Shown here: positions 10,392 through 22,791 of the stretch, one piece after another
Layout of the letters: each line of letters starts with the position of its first letter
How positions within the stretch are numbered: the first letter of the stretch is position 1
Virus record (IMG/VR): IMGVR_UViG_3300023297_001550
Coordinates: 1 to 25,752 of that record
Length of the DNA: 25,752 bases
Direction: 5' to 3' (one strand)
Source: a virus
The notes under the pieces: generated by a model
Databases searched by the model: none
What the model saw: the letters and a program-made list of their open reading frames with translations, nothing else
What the model was told of the DNA's origin: nothing
Translations under genes and position numbers: made by a program

Positions 10392-10775
10392 ATGGTATCA
10401 ATAACAAAGATTTATGAATTTGAAGCCGCCCATCATTTGCCCCATCATAAAGGAGCTTGCCATCAACTGCATGGGCATTCGTATCGTTTAGAAATAACGA
10501 TATCAGGGTCAATTCAGGTTGACGGTCCAAGCAGAGGAATGATTATGGATTTTTCTGTATTGAAAGGAATGATTGAAAACCTACCAATAGCTACACTTGG
10601 CAAATTAGATCATAGCAATCTCAACGATTATTACGACAATCCAACCGCCGAAATCATGGTGCATAAAATAGCAAGAGATATAGAATTAATGCTGTGGGAG
10701 GAATCAATTACACTTGAGCGGGTGCGGCTGTGGGAAACAAAAACCTCATACGCAACATGGGAGAATTACAAATGA
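10392..10775 (+). CDS. queD: QueD, 6-carboxytetrahydropterin synthase
   Basis: 127 residues, the usual length for the 6-pyruvoyl-tetrahydropterin synthase family. The zinc ligands are His14 in FEAAHHLP and His27 and His29 in QLHGHSY; catalytic Cys23 lies in ACHQLHGH. The LDHSNLND motif supplies His74, PTAE and VRLWET (Glu115) complete the active site, all matching the bacterial QueD pattern. It converts dihydroneopterin triphosphate to 6-carboxytetrahydropterin, the second step toward 7-deazaguanines (preQ0). AAAAGGAG lies 7-10 bases before the ATG. It overlaps queE as ATGA, so the two are coupled. In phages these genes usually serve 7-deazaguanine DNA modification rather than tRNA queuosine. 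Confidence 0.93.
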   Translation: MVSITKIYEFEAAHHLPHHKGACHQLHGHSYRLEITISGSIQVDGPSRGMIMDFSVLKGMIENLPIATLGKLDHSNLNDYYDNPTAEIMVHKIARDIELMLWEESITLERVRLWETKTSYATWENYK

Positions 10776-11425
10776 TAAATATAAACGAAATATTCCAAAG
10801 CATCAATGGCGAAATTACTGCTTGGCATCAAGGATCATTGACGACATTCATCAGATTTGCCGGGTGTAATCTCTCATGTACCTACTGCGACGCCGCATCT
10901 GCCAGCGAGATCAATTCCAAATTATTACCATATCAGATTGTGGATATTGTTGAAAAGACAGGATGCAAACAGGTAACAATAACCGGAGGCGAACCCACCT
11001 TACAATATGATGAATTGCAGGAATTGCTCTATGGTTTAGTTTTGGCATTGCAATGCAAAATAACCGTTGAGACAAATGGAACCCATCCAATCCCGGAATG
11101 GATGGAAGATCATATTTCCTGGATAGTTGATTACAAATTTGACTATTCCCACAAAATGATTTATGGCAATTTTGAAAGATGCATCGATAATAATTGGTTG
11201 AAATTTGTAATAGATAAGGAACAGGATTTGCCTATGCTTGAATATTTATTTTCTACTCACCCAATTTTGCATAAAGCAAACGTCGCCATCGGCACCACCG
11301 GCAATGTTCCTCATGCTCAGATTGTTGATTTTCTGATAGACCGGAAACTTTTTAATTGTGTCCTAAACTATCAAATTCATAAGAAAATCTGGCCGATCAG
11401 AAAGGAGGGCAAAAAAATATTGTAA
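10772..11425 (+). CDS. queE: QueE, 7-carboxy-7-deazaguanine synthase (radical SAM)
   Basis: 217 residues from ATG 10772; an upstream in-frame ATG at 10730 lies inside queD and is not needed. The N-terminus INEIFQSINGE and the CxxxCxxC cluster motif (Cys32, Cys36, Cys39 in GCNLSCTYCD) are typical of QueE, as are TITGGEPTLQ, VETNG and the C-terminal QIHKKIWP. It uses SAM and a 4Fe-4S cluster to contract the QueD product to 7-carboxy-7-deazaguanine. The ATGA overlap with queD indicates coupled translation. QueC, FolE and a DNA-inserting DpdA are not in this window, so later steps would come from elsewhere in the phage or from the host. Confidence 0.93.
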   Translation: MININEIFQSINGEITAWHQGSLTTFIRFAGCNLSCTYCDAASASEINSKLLPYQIVDIVEKTGCKQVTITGGEPTLQYDELQELLYGLVLALQCKITVETNGTHPIPEWMEDHISWIVDYKFDYSHKMIYGNFERCIDNNWLKFVIDKEQDLPMLEYLFSTHPILHKANVAIGTTGNVPHAQIVDFLIDRKLFNCVLNYQIHKKIWPIRKEGKKIL

Positions 11426-14597: not shown

Positions 14598-16886
14598 ATG
14601 AATTTTTGCCACTTGCATTTACACACGGAATATTGTCTTGCCGGGGATACAATAATTTATAATTGCATCCAAAATGGCAAAAAGAATAGAAAAGATTATA
14701 CTCTGCCTCATAATTGCAAAACAATAAAATATTTATATGAGGCAGAGTATTCAAAAGAAAGAGGAAGAACAGCAAAAAAATATCCAATAAAAGTCTGGAA
14801 TGGATCTAAATTTGTAAGATCAAAAATAAAAAAAATCTCCAGATCATGCCCAAAACAGCTATATGAAATTTTAACAGAAAATGGAAAAAAAATAAGAACA
14901 TCTAAAAATCATAAATTTCTTAGCGCAATGGGTTGGAGAAGATTGTCTGAATTAGAAGTTGGTGATTTATTAGCGTGCAACGGACAAAAAAAATATGAAG
15001 ACAAAGAATGGTTGCTTAAAAAATATATTGAAGAAAATTTAAACCAACAACAAATAGCAGATATTTATAATGTCAGTAGAGACGTTATAAAGAAATTTCT
15101 AAAAAAATATAACATCCATAAAACAAAAAATGAATGGATGAAAGGCCATTTTGTTTCAGATCAATGTCGGGGAAAAATAAGCAAAATAAAATTAGAAATA
15201 AGAAAAAATTTAATTAATGAAATTCCATCTTCATTAAGCACAAGCAGAAGTCGGGTTAATCGTAGATGGTATTTAGAAAAAAAGAAATGCAATAGATGTG
15301 AATCAAAGAAGAATCTGCTTATTCACCATAAAGACCGAGACCCCATTAATAATAAAATTGAAAATTTAGAAGTCTTATGCAAATCATGCCATGAATTTGA
15401 ACACGCCAGATGTCCACTCACCATAAGATACGAAAAAATTATTTCGATAAAAAAGGATAAAATAGAAGAAACATACGACATAGAAGTATTCCATCAATCG
15501 CATAATTTTATTGCCAATGGCTTTGTGGTTCACAACTCACAATTGGATGGGGTCGGTTCCCCAAAACAGTATGCCAAACGAGCCAAAGAAATGGGCTTTG
15601 AATATCTGGCTATGACTGATCATGGAAATTGCGATGGAGCTATCCAATTCCAGAAGGCTTGTAAGGCAGAAGGCATCAAATCCGTAATCGGTTGTGAAAT
15701 GTATATTGTGCCTTATATGGACGCGAAACACAAGGGCGAAAAGCGAGGGCATATAACGGTATTAGTCAAGGACTTATCGGGCTGGGAAACTCTTCTAAGG
15801 CTGCTTACCAAGGCAAATTTAGAAGGGTTCTACCACAAACCCAGGATAGATTATGAATCCATGCTCAATGTTGATTTATCCGGCCTGATTATTATGACCG
15901 CCTGTGCGGGATCATTTTTACATTTAGATGGATCGATTGATTTTTTATGTGATCTTATCCAAAATAAAGTTGAATGTTATTACGAAATAATGCCTCATAA
16001 TATTCCTGCCCAAGAAAAAATACATAAAATTATTGAACAAGTTTATGACGAAATAGATTTACCATTCGCCGCAACCAATGACACCCACTATATTAATCGG
16101 GGTGATTGGCAAGCCCAGGAAGTATTATTGGCTATTCAATCCAAGGCAAAATGGAAGGATGAAAACAGGTTTAAATTTGGATTCAAGGGTTTGCATCTAC
16201 GATCTGAAAAAGAGATGGTCCGGGCATTTCAAAAACAAGGTTATTGGTCAAATAAAATTATAAAAGAAGCAATGGACAATACGATTAAAATTGCTGAAAA
16301 ATGCTGTGATTTTGTTATCCCAAAACAAGATATATCTTTGCCAGAGCCTCCAGGAACGAAACATCGAAACAAAGATCATATTACGGCCTCCGCCAATGAT
16401 GATCAAGAATTATCTTATCTTATTTACAGTAGCAATAAAGAACCCTTATTGGAGAATAAAATTTATTCAGATAGGCTTGATTACGAATTTGATATTATTT
16501 CCCAAAAGGGATTTTCAAGATATTTTCTCATTGTTGTTGATCTCCTTAATTGGTGTGATAAAAATGATATCATGTTTGGCCCCGGCAGGGGTTGTTTTAC
16601 TCCGGATTCAAAAATAATTTGTTCATCTCATAATAAAATAGAATATAAAAATATATCAAGTATCGAAACTGGAGATAATGTTATTTGTCATGATGGAACA
16701 ACAAATAAAGTCATTGATAAATTACAATATGATATTGAAGAAGAAATTATTGAAATAGAAACGATAGACGGTAGAATTATTGAATGCACATTAGACCATA
16801 AAATAATGACAGATAAAGGATGGATTGAAGCGCAATATTTGAACCCGACTTATCAAATATTAGATTGGAGAAAAAACAATGGATGA
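14598..16886 (+). CDS. dnaE: DNA polymerase III alpha, N-terminal gene: PHP domain, intein 1, and N-half of intein 2
   Basis: 762 residues. Residues 1-12 (CHLHLHTEY) and 314 onward (SQLDGVGSPKQY; LAMTDHGNCDGAIQF; SVIGCEMYIV) form the PHP domain of a C-family polymerase, interrupted by intein 1 at residues 13-313. The polymerase domain then starts (FSRYFLIVVDLLNWCD; FGPGRG). At residue 666 intein 2 begins directly after GPGRG, and its N-half ends at the stop 16884-16886. Host-type extein in this gene is 364 residues. The rest of the enzyme is in the gene starting at 16879, in another frame. AAGGTG precedes the ATG, 3 bases after the clamp stop. Without splicing of both inteins the polymerase would be non-functional. 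Confidence 0.9.
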   Translation: MNFCHLHLHTEYCLAGDTIIYNCIQNGKKNRKDYTLPHNCKTIKYLYEAEYSKERGRTAKKYPIKVWNGSKFVRSKIKKISRSCPKQLYEILTENGKKIRTSKNHKFLSAMGWRRLSELEVGDLLACNGQKKYEDKEWLLKKYIEENLNQQQIADIYNVSRDVIKKFLKKYNIHKTKNEWMKGHFVSDQCRGKISKIKLEIRKNLINEIPSSLSTSRSRVNRRWYLEKKKCNRCESKKNLLIHHKDRDPINNKIENLEVLCKSCHEFEHARCPLTIRYEKIISIKKDKIEETYDIEVFHQSHNFIANGFVVHNSQLDGVGSPKQYAKRAKEMGFEYLAMTDHGNCDGAIQFQKACKAEGIKSVIGCEMYIVPYMDAKHKGEKRGHITVLVKDLSGWETLLRLLTKANLEGFYHKPRIDYESMLNVDLSGLIIMTACAGSFLHLDGSIDFLCDLIQNKVECYYEIMPHNIPAQEKIHKIIEQVYDEIDLPFAATNDTHYINRGDWQAQEVLLAIQSKAKWKDENRFKFGFKGLHLRSEKEMVRAFQKQGYWSNKIIKEAMDNTIKIAEKCCDFVIPKQDISLPEPPGTKHRNKDHITASANDDQELSYLIYSSNKEPLLENKIYSDRLDYEFDIISQKGFSRYFLIVVDLLNWCDKNDIMFGPGRGCFTPDSKIICSSHNKIEYKNISSIETGDNVICHDGTTNKVIDKLQYDIEEEIIEIETIDGRIIECTLDHKIMTDKGWIEAQYLNPTYQILDWRKNNG
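14634..15536 (+). mobile_element. Intein 1: in-frame HNH intein in the DnaE PHP motif
   Basis: 301 residues inserted between Tyr and Ser of HLHTEY/SQLDG. It starts with Cys (CLAGDTIIYN) and ends GFVVHN before Ser+1, the residues needed for splicing. Block B is present as IRTSKNHKFLSAMGWRRLSE. A helix-turn-helix-like segment (QQQIADIYNVSRDVIKKF) and an HNH nuclease follow: CNRC at 231-234, LLIHHKDRD, NKIENLEVLCKSCH ending at 265. Block F is ETYDIEVFHQSHNFIANG. All parts are in one frame, so this looks like a normal, potentially mobile large intein. The N-terminal extein is only 12 residues. Confidence 0.92.
16593..16886 (+). mobile_element. Intein 2, N-terminal half
   Basis: 97 residues beginning with Cys (CFTPDSKIICSS) right after GPGRG of the polymerase. 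Block A, the middle strands (ISSIETGDNVICHDG) and block B (GRIIECTLDHKIMTDKGWIE, with TLDH) are intact. The frame ends 20 residues later at TGA 16884-16886. The point of breakage, after block B, is where natural split inteins are divided and where endonucleases normally sit. The C-half is at the end of 16879-17622. Confidence 0.9.
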
Positions 16887-17622
16887 AATTTGGAAGGATG
16901 TCAATTTTATCGACAACAAAGGAGATATAATTAATTTTTCGGGATTGTACCAAATTTCAAATATGGGAAGAATTAAAAGTCTTTCTCGCGATATAAAAGC
17001 AAGCGAATCTGGAACCTTGAGAAAAACCGAAGAAAAAATTATACGAGGATCGTCTTCTGGTTTAAATAATTATATTGACGTTAATTTATGGTGGAACAAT
17101 ATTTCTTACACAATCCAAAAAAGCAGGTTAGTAGCTTATATGTTTTTAACCAATCCGGATAATAAGCCATGTGTAGAACATCTAAATACAATAAGGACAG
17201 ACGATAGAGTTGAAAATTTAAGATGGTGTACATATTTAGAAAATAACAATAACCCAATAACCAAACAAAAACAGCGTGTATCAAATAGAATTGCAAATAC
17301 CCCCAAGAAAAGGAAAAAGATTTCCAAAACATTAAAAAAATATTTTCTAAAAAACAAAAACCCATGGGCAACAGAAATAATAAATACAAAAACAAATGAG
17401 AAATTTGACTCTATAAAAAAGGCGGCTAACAGTATAAATAAAGACAGCGAATGGCTTGCAAGAAAATTAAGAGGTCGTTGTAAAAACAATACTGATTTTC
17501 AATATGTTAAAAAATACGCACAAATAAAATCGGTTAAAAGAAAAAAATATAAAGGGTTGGTATATGATTTAACAGTCAAAAACAAACACAGCTATAATAT
17601 TGAAGGATTAGCTGTTCATAAT
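16879..17622 (+). mobile_element. Homing endonuclease (NUMOD4-HNH-NUMOD1) joined to the C-half of intein 2
   Basis: 248 residues at the front of the second dnaE gene. A NUMOD4-like start (IWKDVNFIDNKG; GLYQISNMGRIKSLSRD) is followed by an HNH motif of the VEHLNTIRTDDRVENLRWCT type near residues 95-115. A lysine-rich linker leads to a NUMOD1-like DNA-binding segment (FDSIKKAANSINKDSEWLAR). The last ~35 residues are intein block F and G (GLVYDLTVKNKHSYNIEGLA, then VHN before Ser+1). No in-frame ATG separates endonuclease from C-intein, so they are expected to be one polypeptide. Confidence 0.88.
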
Positions 17623-19275
17623 TCAGTCGGTGGAAGTCTTATCGCATATTTATTAGGATTTACAGAAACAGATCCAATCAAATATGGATTATATTTTTCC
17701 AGGTTTATTTCAGAGGAACGCAACGATCTCCCGGATATTGACATCGATTTTGAGGATCGGAAAAGACATCTGGTAATTGAATATCTTGAAAAGACTTATG
17801 GCAAATATAACACTGCTGGAATATCCACTTTCCTGAGAATGAAAGATCGGGCTATAATCCACGATGTTGGCAAGGTGTTTGATGTGCCATACAAAACAGT
17901 AAATGAATTCGCCCAAAGTATTGTTCCTTACCGGGACGATATGAATACCCTTGAAAAGGTTTTGGAACTGGATGAAGGGCAGGAATTCAAAAAGCAATAT
18001 CCAGAAGTGGTCCGCAATGCACTAAAATTAAAAGGAACCATAAAATCAAGTGGTCAACATGCTGCTGCTGTTGTCATATCTAAAGAAGACCTCCGGAAAA
18101 CTAATCGCTGTAATTTGGCTGTCAGATCCAAGCGAATTATGGTTAATTTTGATATGGAAGATAGTGAGTATTGCGGCTTGATGAAACTCGATATATTGGG
18201 CTTGAATACATTATCTGTGCTTGCTCAGACTAAAAAATTGATCAACAAAAAAGATTTCGAATTCAGAAATATTCCACTTGACGATCAAAATATTTTTACA
18301 ATGCTTTCCAGGGGCGAGACAGCGGGCGTATTCCAGTTGTCTGCCGTCCCATCTACAAAGTTATGTAAGGATATGGGGGTCAAGGAGTTCGTTGATATAC
18401 CGGCCATTCTGGCCCTTGTACGGCCTGGTCCGTTCTACTCCGGTATGACCGAAATGTATATTGAAAGATATCACGGGAAGAAGTATCAGAAAACCCATCC
18501 TATTTACGATTCCATTACAAAAGAAACATATGGACTTCTTGTCTATCAAGAACAAGTAATGGCTGTCATTTCTAAGATGGCCGGATTGCCGGAATCAACA
18601 GCGGATAAAATCAGAAAAATAATTGGCAAGAAAAGGGATTCGTCGGCATTTGAAGAATATAAAAAAATATTTATTAGAGGATGTTTGAAACAGAAAACTT
18701 TTTCCCGTAAACAAGCCCTCCAATTTTGGGCAGGACTTTTGGAATGGGCAAGCTACGGATTCTCGAAAAGTCACGCAACAGAATACGGGTTAATCTCATA
18801 CTGGACAGCATGGTTAAAATATCATTATCCATCTGAATTTATGGCTGCTGAATTAACATATGGGACAGGTAAAGAAGATATTGCAAACGAAGCCAGGAAA
18901 CGGGGTATCAAAATCATTACACCCAAAATAGGTTTTTCCGATGCTATTGAATGGAGGGTTGCTGATAAAATATTGTACGCTCCATTTATCGAAATAAAAG
19001 GTGTTGGTGAAAAGGAAGCCCATAAAATATTAAATCCAATATCCCAAAATTCGGGTGGTTTTTTTAATTTAAAAGATGTCGTGGCTATTTCAAAATCTTC
19101 TTTTTCGGGAACAACAGCCATAACATTGAGCAAAATAAAAGCCCATGATCAACATGAAGTTCCAGAAGAAAAGATTTTAAAGGAATATTTTTCAGAAGGA
19201 TTATTTATTACTCAAAAAGAATCTCCTATAAGTCGAAGGCCAAGAAGAAAAAACAGAGATGAGATCCCTTTCTAA
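16879..19275 (+). CDS. dnaE: DNA polymerase III alpha, C-terminal gene: endonuclease, C-half of intein 2, polymerase core
   Basis: 798 residues. ATG 16879 overlaps the upstream stop by 8 bases (ATGGATGA) and has GGAG at 16867-16870 with an 8-base gap, so it can initiate on its own. Residues 1-248 are the endonuclease and C-intein. From residue 249 (SVGGSLIAYLLGFTETDPI) the C-family polymerase core continues: PDIDIDF with Asp286 and Asp288, SGQHAAAVVIS, and KLDILGLNT with Asp438, the three catalytic aspartates. VRPGPF, YQEQVM and FSKSHATEY follow. Total extein from both genes is about 914 residues, shorter than E. coli DnaE (1160), lacking much of the C-terminal OB/tau-binding part. No proofreading exonuclease is visible in the window. 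Confidence 0.9.
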   Translation: MDEIWKDVNFIDNKGDIINFSGLYQISNMGRIKSLSRDIKASESGTLRKTEEKIIRGSSSGLNNYIDVNLWWNNISYTIQKSRLVAYMFLTNPDNKPCVEHLNTIRTDDRVENLRWCTYLENNNNPITKQKQRVSNRIANTPKKRKKISKTLKKYFLKNKNPWATEIINTKTNEKFDSIKKAANSINKDSEWLARKLRGRCKNNTDFQYVKKYAQIKSVKRKKYKGLVYDLTVKNKHSYNIEGLAVHNSVGGSLIAYLLGFTETDPIKYGLYFSRFISEERNDLPDIDIDFEDRKRHLVIEYLEKTYGKYNTAGISTFLRMKDRAIIHDVGKVFDVPYKTVNEFAQSIVPYRDDMNTLEKVLELDEGQEFKKQYPEVVRNALKLKGTIKSSGQHAAAVVISKEDLRKTNRCNLAVRSKRIMVNFDMEDSEYCGLMKLDILGLNTLSVLAQTKKLINKKDFEFRNIPLDDQNIFTMLSRGETAGVFQLSAVPSTKLCKDMGVKEFVDIPAILALVRPGPFYSGMTEMYIERYHGKKYQKTHPIYDSITKETYGLLVYQEQVMAVISKMAGLPESTADKIRKIIGKKRDSSAFEEYKKIFIRGCLKQKTFSRKQALQFWAGLLEWASYGFSKSHATEYGLISYWTAWLKYHYPSEFMAAELTYGTGKEDIANEARKRGIKIITPKIGFSDAIEWRVADKILYAPFIEIKGVGEKEAHKILNPISQNSGGFFNLKDVVAISKSSFSGTTAITLSKIKAHDQHEVPEEKILKEYFSEGLFITQKESPISRRPRRKNRDEIPF

Positions 19276-19289: not shown

Positions 19290-19309
19290 CACTTTATAAT
19301 AAGGATACC

Positions 19310-21670
19310 ATGATAAAAAAATACGAAGAATATCTTAAAAAAAAAGTAAATGTCGCAATGCCCAGTGGATTCGATACCCCATTAAAAAAATTGAATCCCA
19401 TGCTTTTTGATTGGCAAGCCATCCTTACAAAATGGGCAATTGCCAGAGGCCGGGCAGCTTTATTTGAGGATTGTGGCCTGGGCAAAACATGCCAATTACT
19501 CGAATGGTCAAAGCAAATTCATAAAAAAGAAAAAGAACCAATTTTGATTCTCGCACCATTAGCCGTATCAGAACAAACACAAAGAGAAGGCAAAAAATTT
19601 GGAATAGATGTAAATATTTGTGTTAATGATAGTGATGTAATTAATGGAATAAATATCACCAATTATGAAAAACTTCATAAATTTGACCCTGATAGATTTG
19701 TTGGAATTGTACTGGATGAATGTTTTTCTCCTGACACTCCAATAGATGTTTTTAATATTGACAATTCTTTAGGATCGAAGTATATTAAAGATGTCACCAT
19801 TGGGGATAAAATTTATAATGCAGGAGGAATTGATCATGTATATAATATCTGTAAAAGACCCATCGACAGGGCGGTTCAAATTCGTATCAAAGGAAGGCCG
19901 TTTACCTGTAGCGAACATCATCCATGGTTTACCTTGCATGGATGGAGATTCGCAAAAGATTTACAACCCGAAGATTGTCTCATGGCAACAGAAGAGACAA
20001 TGCGCTTGGTGCGGGGTGATTTTTCGTCCAAAATATGTGGCGAACAAAATGGCGAGGTTTTGCGGGACATCTTGCTCAGCGAAATGGAGGATGAATACTC
20101 CAGAACACAAAGCAAAAGTACATACCCCAGAGATAGCGGCCAAAAGGGGAATTTCGAGATCAAAATGGCTTCGAAGCGGAGATCCCAAAGCGATAAAAGA
20201 AATGGATCGAATAGCCAATTTAAATCCAATGTCAAATCCCAAAACAATCGAAAAAATGATTCAAACCAAAACAGCCAACGGAACATTTCGGCAATGGAAA
20301 GGAAAAAAGGGAGGCAACGGTCGACCATTCTCAATCCCGCAACAAATAATGATAGAATGCCTGTCAAAAAAATGGATTCCAGAATATCCAATTTCTTTAG
20401 GAAAAAGGCAACCTGGATATCCAACCTGTTACAAAGTGGATGTAGGAAATCCAACTCTAAAAATAGCAATAGAAATAGATGGGGCAGGACACGTGAACAA
20501 AAAAGTACAAATTATCGACAAAAAGAAAGATCAAAAATTGATATCTTTAGGGTGGAAAGTATTGAGATTTTGGAACAAGGACATCCTGAATTGGAAAAAT
20601 ACAGGGATGAATCAGGCATCGTATATTTCTATGACATTGAAGCAGAACGGCATCCATCTTTCAGCGTAAACGGATGCCTTGTTCATAATTCCAGTATTTT
20701 GAAAAATTTCTCCGGAGCAATTCGAAATGAAATTATTGGTTCTTTCCAAAAAACTAAATATCGCCTTGCTTGTACTGCAACCCCAGCCCCCAATGATTAT
20801 ATGGAGTTGGGAAACCATTCTGAATTTTTAGGAGTGATGACAAGATCAGAAATGCTATCAACCTTTTTTATAAACGATACTGACAAAGTTGGCCATTGGC
20901 GATTAAAGGGACATGTAAAAAATAATATATTTTGGAAATGGATGGCATCATGGGCAATCATGATTAATAAACCATCTGATATCGGATTTGATAATAGCGG
21001 ATTTGAATTACCAGAAATTGAATATCATGAACATATTATAAAATCAGACGCAAAACCAACAGAAGGATTATTATTATTACAAACAGCATCAACATTAGAT
21101 GAACGTCGGAAAGTAAGACGGGAAACAGTTGAAATTAGATGTCAAACAGCGGCAGATATAATTAACCCAACTGATAGTAGATGGGTCTGTTGGGTTAATT
21201 TAAACCCAGAAGGTGAGGCAATCACAAAAAAAGTTAATTACGCCAAAGAAGTTGCAGGTAGACATTCTAATGATATCAAAATCCAGAGAATGATTGGATT
21301 TGCTTCCGGCGATTTGAAACGGATAGCGACCAAACCAAAAATAGCAGGCCTTGGTATGAATTGGCAAGTTTGCAATAAAGCGGCATTTATTGGACTGAGT
21401 GATAGTTGGGAACAATTCTATCAGGCAGTAAGGCGCATATGGAGATTTGGGCAAAAAGAGAAAGTCGATATTCATATTTTTATTGAAGAGCGGGAAGGAT
21501 CTGTTTTAAAAAACATTAGGCGTAAAGATAAACAGGCAAAATTAATGACTGAAAATATGATAAATCATACAAAAGATTTTGCTAAAATAGAATTGGAACA
21601 ATCCAAAAAAACATTTATTGATTATTCACCTACTAAAAAAATGAGGTTGCCAAAATGGATAACAGGGTAA
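19310..21670 (+). CDS. Second SNF2-like helicase, interrupted by intein 3 in Walker B
   Basis: 786 residues, of which 463 are extein. Motif I is FEDCGLGKT with Lys59. Motif II is VLDE (136-137) directly followed by intein 3, and resumes as SSILKNFSG, so the spliced protein reads VLDESSILKNF. LACTATPAPNDYMELGNHSE is motif III. The C-terminal half has KIAGLGMNWQVCN and QAVRRIWRFGQKEKV, motifs V-VI. It is a compact DNA translocase of the kind often next to methyltransferases in phages; its substrate is unknown. TAAGGAT precedes the ATG weakly. Its last 16 bases overlap the radical SAM gene. The intein is required to leave before ATPase activity is possible, because it splits the catalytic DE from its loop. 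Confidence 0.88.
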   Translation: MIKKYEEYLKKKVNVAMPSGFDTPLKKLNPMLFDWQAILTKWAIARGRAALFEDCGLGKTCQLLEWSKQIHKKEKEPILILAPLAVSEQTQREGKKFGIDVNICVNDSDVINGINITNYEKLHKFDPDRFVGIVLDECFSPDTPIDVFNIDNSLGSKYIKDVTIGDKIYNAGGIDHVYNICKRPIDRAVQIRIKGRPFTCSEHHPWFTLHGWRFAKDLQPEDCLMATEETMRLVRGDFSSKICGEQNGEVLRDILLSEMEDEYSRTQSKSTYPRDSGQKGNFEIKMASKRRSQSDKRNGSNSQFKSNVKSQNNRKNDSNQNSQRNISAMERKKGRQRSTILNPATNNDRMPVKKMDSRISNFFRKKATWISNLLQSGCRKSNSKNSNRNRWGRTREQKSTNYRQKERSKIDIFRVESIEILEQGHPELEKYRDESGIVYFYDIEAERHPSFSVNGCLVHNSSILKNFSGAIRNEIIGSFQKTKYRLACTATPAPNDYMELGNHSEFLGVMTRSEMLSTFFINDTDKVGHWRLKGHVKNNIFWKWMASWAIMINKPSDIGFDNSGFELPEIEYHEHIIKSDAKPTEGLLLLQTASTLDERRKVRRETVEIRCQTAADIINPTDSRWVCWVNLNPEGEAITKKVNYAKEVAGRHSNDIKIQRMIGFASGDLKRIATKPKIAGLGMNWQVCNKAAFIGLSDSWEQFYQAVRRIWRFGQKEKVDIHIFIEEREGSVLKNIRRKDKQAKLMTENMINHTKDFAKIELEQSKKTFIDYSPTKKMRLPKWITG
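19721..20689 (+). mobile_element. Intein 3: intein frame with an endonuclease gene nested in another frame
   Basis: 323 residues (helicase residues 138-460). It starts CFSPDTPIDVFN and ends VNGCLVHN before Ser+1. N-side blocks are clear: KDVTIGDKIYN and RPFTCSEHHPWFTLHGWRFA (block B). The C-side has IVYFYDIEAERHPSFSVNG (block F). Between about 19995 and 20535 the intein frame codes for a low-complexity Ser/Asn/Lys/Arg/Gln chain (KSNSKNSNRNRWGRTREQ and similar) with no recognisable domain, yet without a single stop. The conserved endonuclease is in the overlapping frame (19836-20669). The intein therefore seems to be a splicing domain with a long neutral insert. Confidence 0.9.
19836..20669 (+). 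CDS. Vsr/DUF559-like homing endonuclease nested out of frame within intein 3
   Basis: 278 residues, wholly inside the intein, +1 relative to its frame. ATG 19836 has a perfect AGGAGG (19822-19827) 8 bases upstream; an in-frame ATG at 19791 has none. Its first ~50 residues overlap intein-coding block B and look unconserved. From about 20000 there is a zinc finger (QCAWCGVIF and ARFCGTSCSAKWR), a linker with NPMSNPKTIEKM and KKGGNGRPFSIPQQ, and a nuclease domain: GYPTCYKVDVGNPTLKIA, IEIDGAGH, then KKDQKLISLGWKVLRFWNKD. This matches the Vsr-fold DUF559/EDxHD-type homing nucleases known from phages, including those found in fractured, split-intein genes. It would cut intein-less alleles of the helicase gene. 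Confidence 0.87.
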   Translation: MYIISVKDPSTGRFKFVSKEGRLPVANIIHGLPCMDGDSQKIYNPKIVSWQQKRQCAWCGVIFRPKYVANKMARFCGTSCSAKWRMNTPEHKAKVHTPEIAAKRGISRSKWLRSGDPKAIKEMDRIANLNPMSNPKTIEKMIQTKTANGTFRQWKGKKGGNGRPFSIPQQIMIECLSKKWIPEYPISLGKRQPGYPTCYKVDVGNPTLKIAIEIDGAGHVNKKVQIIDKKKDQKLISLGWKVLRFWNKDILNWKNTGMNQASYISMTLKQNGIHLSA

Positions 21671-22791
21671 TTAACGAAAATCAATTAATTGAAATGCTCA
21701 AAAAAGCAAAAAATATTTTATTAATAGAACCTCCATATCGGCGGAGTTATATTCCATTAGGATTGGCTAAAATATCCACATTTGCAAAATCTAATGGAGC
21801 GAAAATAACTTATTCAAGGGGAATTATTCCTGGCAATTTTAATTTGATTTGTATCACTTCTATGTTCACCAATGATTCCGACAAAGTTTTAAAAGTCATA
21901 CATGATTGTCAAAATGGCCTACTTTTAAATAATGTGCCTGTTATTGTTGGTGGAATATATGCCTCAATAATGTCAAAACACGTATTAAAAAACACATCAA
22001 AAAATCTTTACGTTTTTACGGGTCATTCAAAAATACTTGATTCTTATTTACCGGATTATGATCTTGATTATGGTATGAGTGGATTTTTTAATAATGTAAT
22101 GACTTTATTTACGACAAGGGGATGCGTAAATAAATGCGCGTATTGCATGGTCTGGCGGATGGAGCAAGAATATTATATCTGTCCAAATTGGAAGGGAAAT
22201 ATTGAAAATATAGACCGAGAAGTTTGCATGGTTTCAGATAATAGCTTTTTATCCGCCCCACATGAGCATATTAAAAATGTAATCCATTGCCTGAATGAAA
22301 ATAATAAAAAAGTGATATTCAATAATGGCATGAATTGTAGAGAAATTAATGATAAAAATGCAAAGTTGCTTGCTTCTTTAAAATATACAAGGCAGGGGTT
22401 TAGAATTGGATTTGATAGAATAAAAGATGATGGTCATTATCAAAAAGCCATGGAGAAATTGCAAAAAGCTGGATTAAAATTATCAGGCAACTCTTATACA
22501 TATGTTTTATATAATTTTGAAGAAACTCCGCAAGATGCTTATTACAGGGCAACTGAAGCATGGAAATTTAAAAGCAATCCATATTTAATGCGATACCGGC
22601 CTTTAAATCAAACCCATAAAAAATTAGATTATATTGGAAAATATTGGACAAAAAATCTTATTAGAGCCTTTTCTTATTACGGTTCGACATTTGGATATAA
22701 TAGGGGTGATAAAACTTTTGAAGGATGGATGAAAAGTTCCGATATAAAATTGACTAATGAAGATTGGGATAAATGGAATTACAGGAGATAA
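21655..22791 (+). CDS. Radical SAM protein with B12-binding-like N-terminus
   Basis: 378 residues. The N-terminal 130 residues (NILLIEPPYRRSYIPLGLAK; VPVIVGGIYASIMS) look like the Rossmann-type cobalamin-binding fold found before some radical SAM domains, but the diagnostic DxHxxG is not seen, so cobalamin binding is doubtful. The cluster motif is Cys157, Cys161, Cys164 (GCVNKCAYCMVW). The rest shows barrel strands (VCMVSDNSFLSAP; FRIGFDRIKDDG). The substrate is unknown. It overlaps the helicase end by 16 bases and is followed by a DNA methyltransferase, so a role in DNA or nucleotide modification is an inference from context. ATG 21655 has GAGG about 9 bases upstream. Confidence 0.78.
   Translation: MDNRVINENQLIEMLKKAKNILLIEPPYRRSYIPLGLAKISTFAKSNGAKITYSRGIIPGNFNLICITSMFTNDSDKVLKVIHDCQNGLLLNNVPVIVGGIYASIMSKHVLKNTSKNLYVFTGHSKILDSYLPDYDLDYGMSGFFNNVMTLFTTRGCVNKCAYCMVWRMEQEYYICPNWKGNIENIDREVCMVSDNSFLSAPHEHIKNVIHCLNENNKKVIFNNGMNCREINDKNAKLLASLKYTRQGFRIGFDRIKDDGHYQKAMEKLQKAGLKLSGNSYTYVLYNFEETPQDAYYRATEAWKFKSNPYLMRYRPLNQTHKKLDYIGKYWTKNLIRAFSYYGSTFGYNRGDKTFEGWMKSSDIKLTNEDWDKWNYRR

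Follow-up and report, generated by a model that had tools for sequence, protein, structure and literature searches.

Can a mobile intein keep its homing endonuclease in a reading frame other than its own, so that one stretch of DNA specifies two proteins? Mobile inteins are usually described as one polypeptide with two jobs. The question is raised by a locus in a phage record of 25,752 bases (IMGVR_UViG_3300023297_001550; the whole stretch is referred to as the window), in which an intein interrupts a helicase gene and a nuclease gene lies nested within this intein in the +1 frame. Our analysis indicates that this is very probably a mobile intein giving rise to two proteins, an intein that splices in cis and a separate +1-frame homing endonuclease. 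The two-frame layout is no isolated case but the regular arrangement in a large family of inteins.

The helicase gene is a continuous open reading frame (ORF; 19310-21670, plus strand) of 786 aa, which the ORF list and Pfam identify as an intein-interrupted member of the SNF2 family. As delimited by ORF translation and Pfam, its N-extein (19310..19720) runs to the Walker B motif (...VLDE) and its C-extein (20690..21670) begins with SSILKNF. The intein is inserted into the Walker B motif directly after ...VLDE and occupies 19721..20689 (969 nt, 323 codons, C1 to N323); it reads CFSPDTP...NGCLVHN, is followed by Ser as the +1 residue and has no stop in the helicase frame, so that the initial annotation had placed it and its splicing blocks correctly. 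The N-terminal part of the splicing domain (IntN; 19721..20017, about residues 1-99) carries block B (...TCSEHHPWFT) and is predicted by AlphaFold2 at a predicted local distance difference test score (pLDDT) of 95-98 over residues 1-90. The C-terminal part (IntC; 20537..20689) carries blocks F and G (...VYFYDIEAERHPSFSVNGCLVHN), as judged from conserved residues and AlphaFold2. Between the two, opposite the nuclease, lies a linker (20018..20536) that is open, not conserved in sequence and predicted to be disordered. In Pfam, the outer (helicase) frame matched Intein_splicing at E=3.5e-5, under the curated cut-off of that family. Intein-less homologues exist at the precise conserved site (loci L003, L146 and L148), and L003 reads ICIDE|SSIMKSF at the insertion point of the window intein.

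The nested gene (19836..20669, plus strand) encodes a protein of 277 aa that combines a zinc ribbon with a DUF559/EDxHD-type domain, according to Pfam, alignment and a structure model. The ORF of the nuclease frame spans 19791-20669, its stop still lies within the intein, and upstream of ATG 19836 the frame is open to 19773. ATG 19836 is most plausibly the start: an AGGAGG ribosome-binding site (19822..19827, plus strand) precedes it by 8 nt, as had been noted from the sequence before, and recurs in the independent contig L002. Across the family, 60 of 96 loci had a Shine-Dalgarno (SD) match of at least 4 nt ahead of a candidate nested start, compared to 16.2 ± 3.5 in a control that drew an equal number of start-like codons from the C-exteins. 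Two promoter-like matches (TTGACA-17-TATATT at 19758-19786, and ATGTCA-17-TATAAT) lie just upstream of the nested ribosome-binding site, at 19758-19819. As the promoter scan overall gave 10 matches versus 8.7 in shuffles, and thus no excess, nothing is built on the TTGACA-17-TATATT match, and the pair is a mere hint of a separate nuclease transcript.

The nested frame matched DUF559 in Pfam (E=3.8e-10), in agreement with the earlier assignment of a nuclease wholly inside the intein. The zinc-ribbon cysteines C56, C59, C76 and C80 (20001..20075, plus strand) were located by alignment, and the catalytic region (DUF559, Vsr/EDxHD-like; 20430..20603, plus strand) by Pfam together with structural matches to I-Bth0305I and Vsr. 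A model built on 46 sequences reached a mean pLDDT of 83.6, and its C-terminal domain aligned over about 90-100 residues with I-Bth0305I (3r3p, Z 10.2) and with Vsr (1cw0, Z 9.9), as well as with the DUF559 protein 3hrl (Z 10.2). Foldseek by itself returned weak E-values for the nuclease matches; those to mitoribosome proteins were taken as a shared fold of no functional meaning. D202, D215, H219, D228 and two of the zinc-ribbon cysteines are invariant in the nuclease alignment and E213 is nearly so; by analogy, the conserved acidic and histidine residues would be catalytic.

How widespread is this arrangement? A tblastn search of a phage collection with the window nuclease hit 40 records, in each case beneath an annotated coding sequence (CDS), many of them named helicase. 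Nine of these were inspected as representatives (Vibrio phages 1.088.O, 1.194.O, 104E43.1, K391, 159E43-1b, Rostov M3 and CP-T1, Pseudomonas phage MR14 and Corynebacterium phage phi673), and all nine hold an unannotated +1 nuclease within the helicase CDS and an intein at the Walker B site DE|C. IMG/VR and genomes were additionally scanned with a ten-sequence nuclease alignment. Among 130 scan loci (the best 80 of 194 IMG/VR loci plus 50 genome loci), 98 were nested, with an offset of +1 in 98 of 98, so that a bifunctional intein with splicing and endonuclease in a single frame is not the case in the window or in any nested scan locus. Most of the non-nested scan loci are generic DUF559 proteins matched over the catalytic domain only. 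With 13 further loci, the nested total is at least 111, every one at exactly +1. The hosts comprise cultured Vibrio, Pseudomonas and Corynebacterium phages, IMG/VR phages and bacterial contigs labelled with ten phyla, some of which may be prophages. The outer ORF junctions read DE|C...VHN|C or S, and in some helicases they lie at one of a few positions close by. At locus L081 (1815-4802), it is a terminase-like ATPase that contains an intein with a nested nuclease (CDELSF|CFVSGT...LVHN|CPSG; ATPase assigned by eye, Pfam showing the intein only), and the element is therefore not confined to helicases. No relatives turned up in a plasmid collection. IMG/VR scans with single proteins or a two-sequence intein alignment found one locus each; the pattern method misses distant relatives.

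Two other layouts occur among the relatives. L071 and L107 are fractured into an ORF for the helicase N-terminus plus IntN, a nuclease ORF, and an ORF for IntC plus the helicase C-terminus; the intein halves are still in register and the nuclease is at +1. This layout is absent from the window, where the helicase ORF is unbroken. In L051 (2941-5209), L064 (2917-5209) and L096 (2977-5036), a free nuclease gene overlaps the start of an intein-less helicase gene.

Is the double openness more than chance? Over the overlap in the window, both coding frames are free of stops, whereas the third forward frame contains 27. We permuted synonymous codons, leaving the nuclease sequence and the precise set of its codons unaltered (20,000 shuffles). 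For the window, 12.6 ± 2.4 stops were expected in the intein frame and none was observed; not a single shuffle was stop-free. In the converse test, which preserved the intein protein, 6.8 stops were expected in the nuclease frame, again with none observed. Across 102 distinct nested loci, the intein frame had zero stops compared to 964 expected by synonymous-codon shuffling (per locus, median 9.2 and lowest 3.1); nested relatives with stops in this frame, which the initial annotation had named as evidence against itself, did not occur among them. Seven full-length non-nested relatives, free-standing or fractured, had about as many stops as expected, with observed/expected values of 29/29.4, 9/10.9, 21/19.7, 19/26.6, 39/33.3, 26/28.5 and 23/28.0. 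The open-frame class of nuclease relatives is the same class that has continuous inteins. A by-product of base composition was rejected on the exact-codon shuffles and on the expected stop numbers in the non-nested relatives. On the minus strand, a 183-aa reverse ORF (19918-20469) runs across the overlap, a probable by-product of stop avoidance and of the low T content of the coding strand.

Substitution patterns indicate which frame is selected where. The independent IMG/VR contig L002, from another metagenome, has the same two open frames, with a nuclease identity of 74% and one 3-nt indel in the intein, and compensating sequencing errors are therefore excluded. Between the window and L002, helicase codon position 3 took 51 of 87 substitutions in the N-extein and 156 of 287 in the C-extein, whereas 74 of the 149 linker substitutions fell on nuclease position 3. 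In two 81-nt stretches of overlap between the nested gene and the splicing blocks, the rate dropped to 0.07 and 0.11 substitutions per site. Pooled over 15 related pairs, some with members in common, the substitutions at outer positions 1:2:3 were 1196:814:3042 in the exteins, 133:89:293 in IntN, 640:272:229 in the linker and 45:23:57 in the IntC overlap. Outer position 1 of the linker is nuclease position 3; the dominant frame therefore switches at the linker.

The outer frame was further compared with a null that had nuclease conservation and outer-frame openness built in (first 10 of 13 comparisons). In the linker, outer-frame similarity was at or below the null expectation, and the linker thus seems, from these sequence comparisons, to be selected for staying open and not for its amino acids. 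Where the nested gene overlaps the splicing blocks, similarity lay above the null (BLOSUM z +0.35 to +2.6, six comparisons). The idea that the outer-frame linker is a functional domain was rejected, as its similarity is no higher than nuclease conservation forces. Selection on both frames, as initially proposed, is borne out by the shuffles and the substitution patterns, with the amendment that the outer frame of the linker is held to openness only. The dual-coding stretch, both frames of which are indeed open, measures about 277 codons and not the 180 first given, since the nested gene extends into both splicing blocks.

A two-frame layout would also arise if ribosomes were programmed to shift from the helicase frame into the nuclease frame, yielding a fusion of helicase N-terminus, IntN and nuclease in place of a separate protein. 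The overlap of the frames does extend over the entire nuclease, whose frame is also open ahead of its ATG. Nevertheless, the strong SD before ATG 19836 and the SD enrichment across the family make this very unlikely, as do the fractured and free relatives, which have their own starts; moreover, frameshifting alone would not need an open helicase-frame linker, yet the linker is stop-free in all nested loci.

Does the insert splice? C1, T6, H67, P68, H322 and N323 are invariant in an alignment of 43 inteins. The +1 residue is Ser in the window and Cys or Ser at every listed junction, from a motif search that preset the terminal Asn and C/S/T at +1 by construction, though the empty Vibrio allele has Ala. 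AlphaFold2, run on 40 aligned inteins, gave a confident splicing domain (block means of 95-98 for residues 1-90 and 85-96 for residues 271-323) and a pLDDT below 50 for nearly all residues from 127 to 270. The model matched the gp41-1 intein (E=1.4e-6) and many other intein and HINT structures. By its conserved residues and predicted fold, the insert is an intein with a HINT domain and complete splicing residues. An Rfam search of 19300-21700 up to E=1 gave no match, and the open frame and the splicing blocks also argue against a group I or group II intron with an out-of-frame ORF. Out-of-frame endonucleases are known from phage methylases in tolerated insertions, termed ShiLan (PMC11855218), and a splicing-dead insert could likewise be kept in the helicase as a loop whose frame stays open for the sake of the full-length protein only. 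We regard this as highly improbable in light of the six invariant residues, the confident HINT fold and the Cys or Ser at +1 despite the Ala of the empty allele; in addition, an unspliced insertion of 323 aa in Walker B should be damaging. The ShiLan type is defined by a lack of splicing motifs and fold, both of which the window intein has.

An assembly artefact, in which two compensating indels moved an in-frame endonuclease out of frame and the outer openness reflects an A-rich, T-poor coding strand that does reduce stop frequency somewhat, has a negligible chance of being right and is refuted by the same offset in independent metagenome contigs and cultured phage genomes, and further opposed by exact-codon shuffles that expect about 10 stops per locus, by non-nested relatives with the expected stops and by the substitution phase that switches at the linker. 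The compensating indels that the initial annotation had named as its possible undoing were not found, L002 and the cultured phages sharing the layout.

Comparisons among related phages bear on mobility. Vibrio phages 1.088.O (MG592463) and 1.194.O share 95-97% identity in the intein DNA and 74-82% in the extein segments; against K391, the values are 94-97% and 74-84%. Right next to the intein, extein identity in the Vibrio phages is 74-75%. The locus pairs L054/L055, L044/L047 and L078/L091 show the same contrast. An intein-free version of this helicase (DE|AHH) is present in phages 1.285.O (MG592655) and 1.103.O, the 1.285.O protein measuring 544 aa, that is 900 minus 356. The high intein versus lower extein identity and the empty alleles are, as far as sequence comparison goes, a homing footprint in Vibrio phages, with putative cleavage by the nuclease. 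At the same Walker B site, Vibrio phage K459 (L147, 648-2729) has a mini-intein of 149 aa that lacks a nuclease. The IntC end of this mini-intein matches the 1.194.O intein exactly but its IntN is different, which suggests recombination between inteins.

Taken as a mobile intein with two products, the element would act as follows. Translation of the helicase frame would yield a helicase-intein precursor, in which the HINT domain, folded around a long disordered linker, would excise itself and rejoin Walker B, as the conserved residues and the fold suggest. From the same mRNA, the internal ribosome-binding site would direct translation of the +1 frame into a separate zinc-ribbon/EDxHD nuclease. 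The Walker B codons of empty helicase alleles are the presumed target of this enzyme; upon cleavage, repair would copy in the entire intein together with its nested gene, in line with the footprint in the Vibrio phages. Selection preserves both the nuclease sequence and the stop-free outer frame, as the pattern described above shows, so that cis splicing would still work. Where the openness of the outer frame is lost, a fractured gene may result, with a split intein and a free nuclease ORF between its halves, the layout found in L071 and L107.

Certain points weigh against this interpretation. An SD of at least 4 nt is missing in 36 of 96 nested loci, and initiation may therefore vary. The zero count of stops is partly definitional because loci were classed as nested by their open outer frame; the informative part is that full-length relatives fetched by the nuclease protein alone had either 0 or at least 9 stops, with none between. 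Related loci are also not independent, though 93 four-mer clusters still remain among the 111. Finally, a quick tree leaves the direction from free to nested to fractured unfixed; it groups L071 with L107 (Shimodaira-Hasegawa-like approximate likelihood-ratio test, SH-aLRT, 100), puts the window in an SNF2-site group of eight (SH-aLRT 92) and scatters the free loci over three places.

As to origin, the initial annotation had proposed that a mini-intein captured a free-standing nuclease gene. Free relatives beside intein-less helicases and the mini-intein at the same site fit this proposal, the tree leaving it without a direction. The layout of L051, L064 and L096 resembles collaborative homing and could represent an ancestor or a remnant; nuclease turnover has also been proposed as an origin of collaborative homing (PMC10448857). 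We give even credence to a wider scheme, in which overlapping-frame inteins are a large unrecognised mobile class and the missing link between free homing endonucleases and split inteins: a free nuclease cutting the helicase gene would have been captured by a mini-intein in +1, and loss of openness would have led to fractured genes with trans-splicing split inteins.

Fractured genes and split inteins accompanied by EDxHD endonuclease genes were reportedly described by Dassa et al. in 2009. They share with the present family a separate nuclease gene between intein halves and the same catalytic fold class, the layout seen in L071 and L107. The window and 110 other loci differ by a continuous intein frame that overlaps the nuclease; cis splicing is therefore possible and the host gene is whole. 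Bifunctional inteins of the PI-SceI type likewise unite a HINT splicing domain and a homing endonuclease in one DNA insert. The window nuclease, in contrast, lies outside the intein polypeptide as a separate +1 gene with its own start. With I-Bth0305I and Vsr it has the fold of the catalytic domain in common, and it differs from them by its nested position within an intein and by the zinc ribbon that precedes this domain. Published work places a DUF559 gene in the EDxHD group (PMC9403480).

Within the open-licence literature of PubMed Central, the only precedent for an out-of-frame hidden endonuclease was the non-splicing ShiLan type. The ShiLan domain and the Pacc40 gp60 insertion are out-of-frame HNH endonucleases in phage methylases, for which no ribosome-binding site was found (Arsenault, Gosselin, Gogarten 2025, PMC11855218). 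They resemble the window family in that a phage gene contains an in-frame insertion without stops, an alternative frame of which conceals a homing endonuclease, and in their patchy distribution. Unlike these insertions, which have neither a splicing domain nor a recognisable ribosome-binding site and carry an HNH nuclease, the window family combines a complete intein with an SD and a nuclease of the DUF559/EDxHD type, and it resides mostly in superfamily 2 (SF2) helicases.

Splicing and mobility would accordingly be uncoupled into two overlapping genes at more than 100 loci, including sequenced culturable phages annotated as helicase only. The family is a clear long prokaryotic overlapping-gene system with a natural control set of nested, free and fractured relatives, by which the origin of split inteins and fractured genes becomes testable. 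That about 100 related inteins of phages and bacteria share the two-frame design suggests a possible origin of split inteins. Surveys that seek in-frame endonucleases would misfile these elements as inteins with an unknown insert.

The window contains further inteins and genes beside the helicase. Its DNA polymerase III alpha gene (14598-16886 / 16879-19275) carries a first intein near the N-terminus, with an HNH match in frame, and is broken at its second intein. There, the first ORF ends in IntN, and the second, which overlaps it by 8 nt in a different frame, begins with NUMOD4-HNH-NUMOD1 fused to IntC and the remaining polymerase; this is another kind of split, HNH-carrying intein. Neighbouring ORFs at 10392-11425 resemble, as judged by eye, QueD- and QueE-type genes; if they are, the DNA of this phage may carry deazaguanine modifications.
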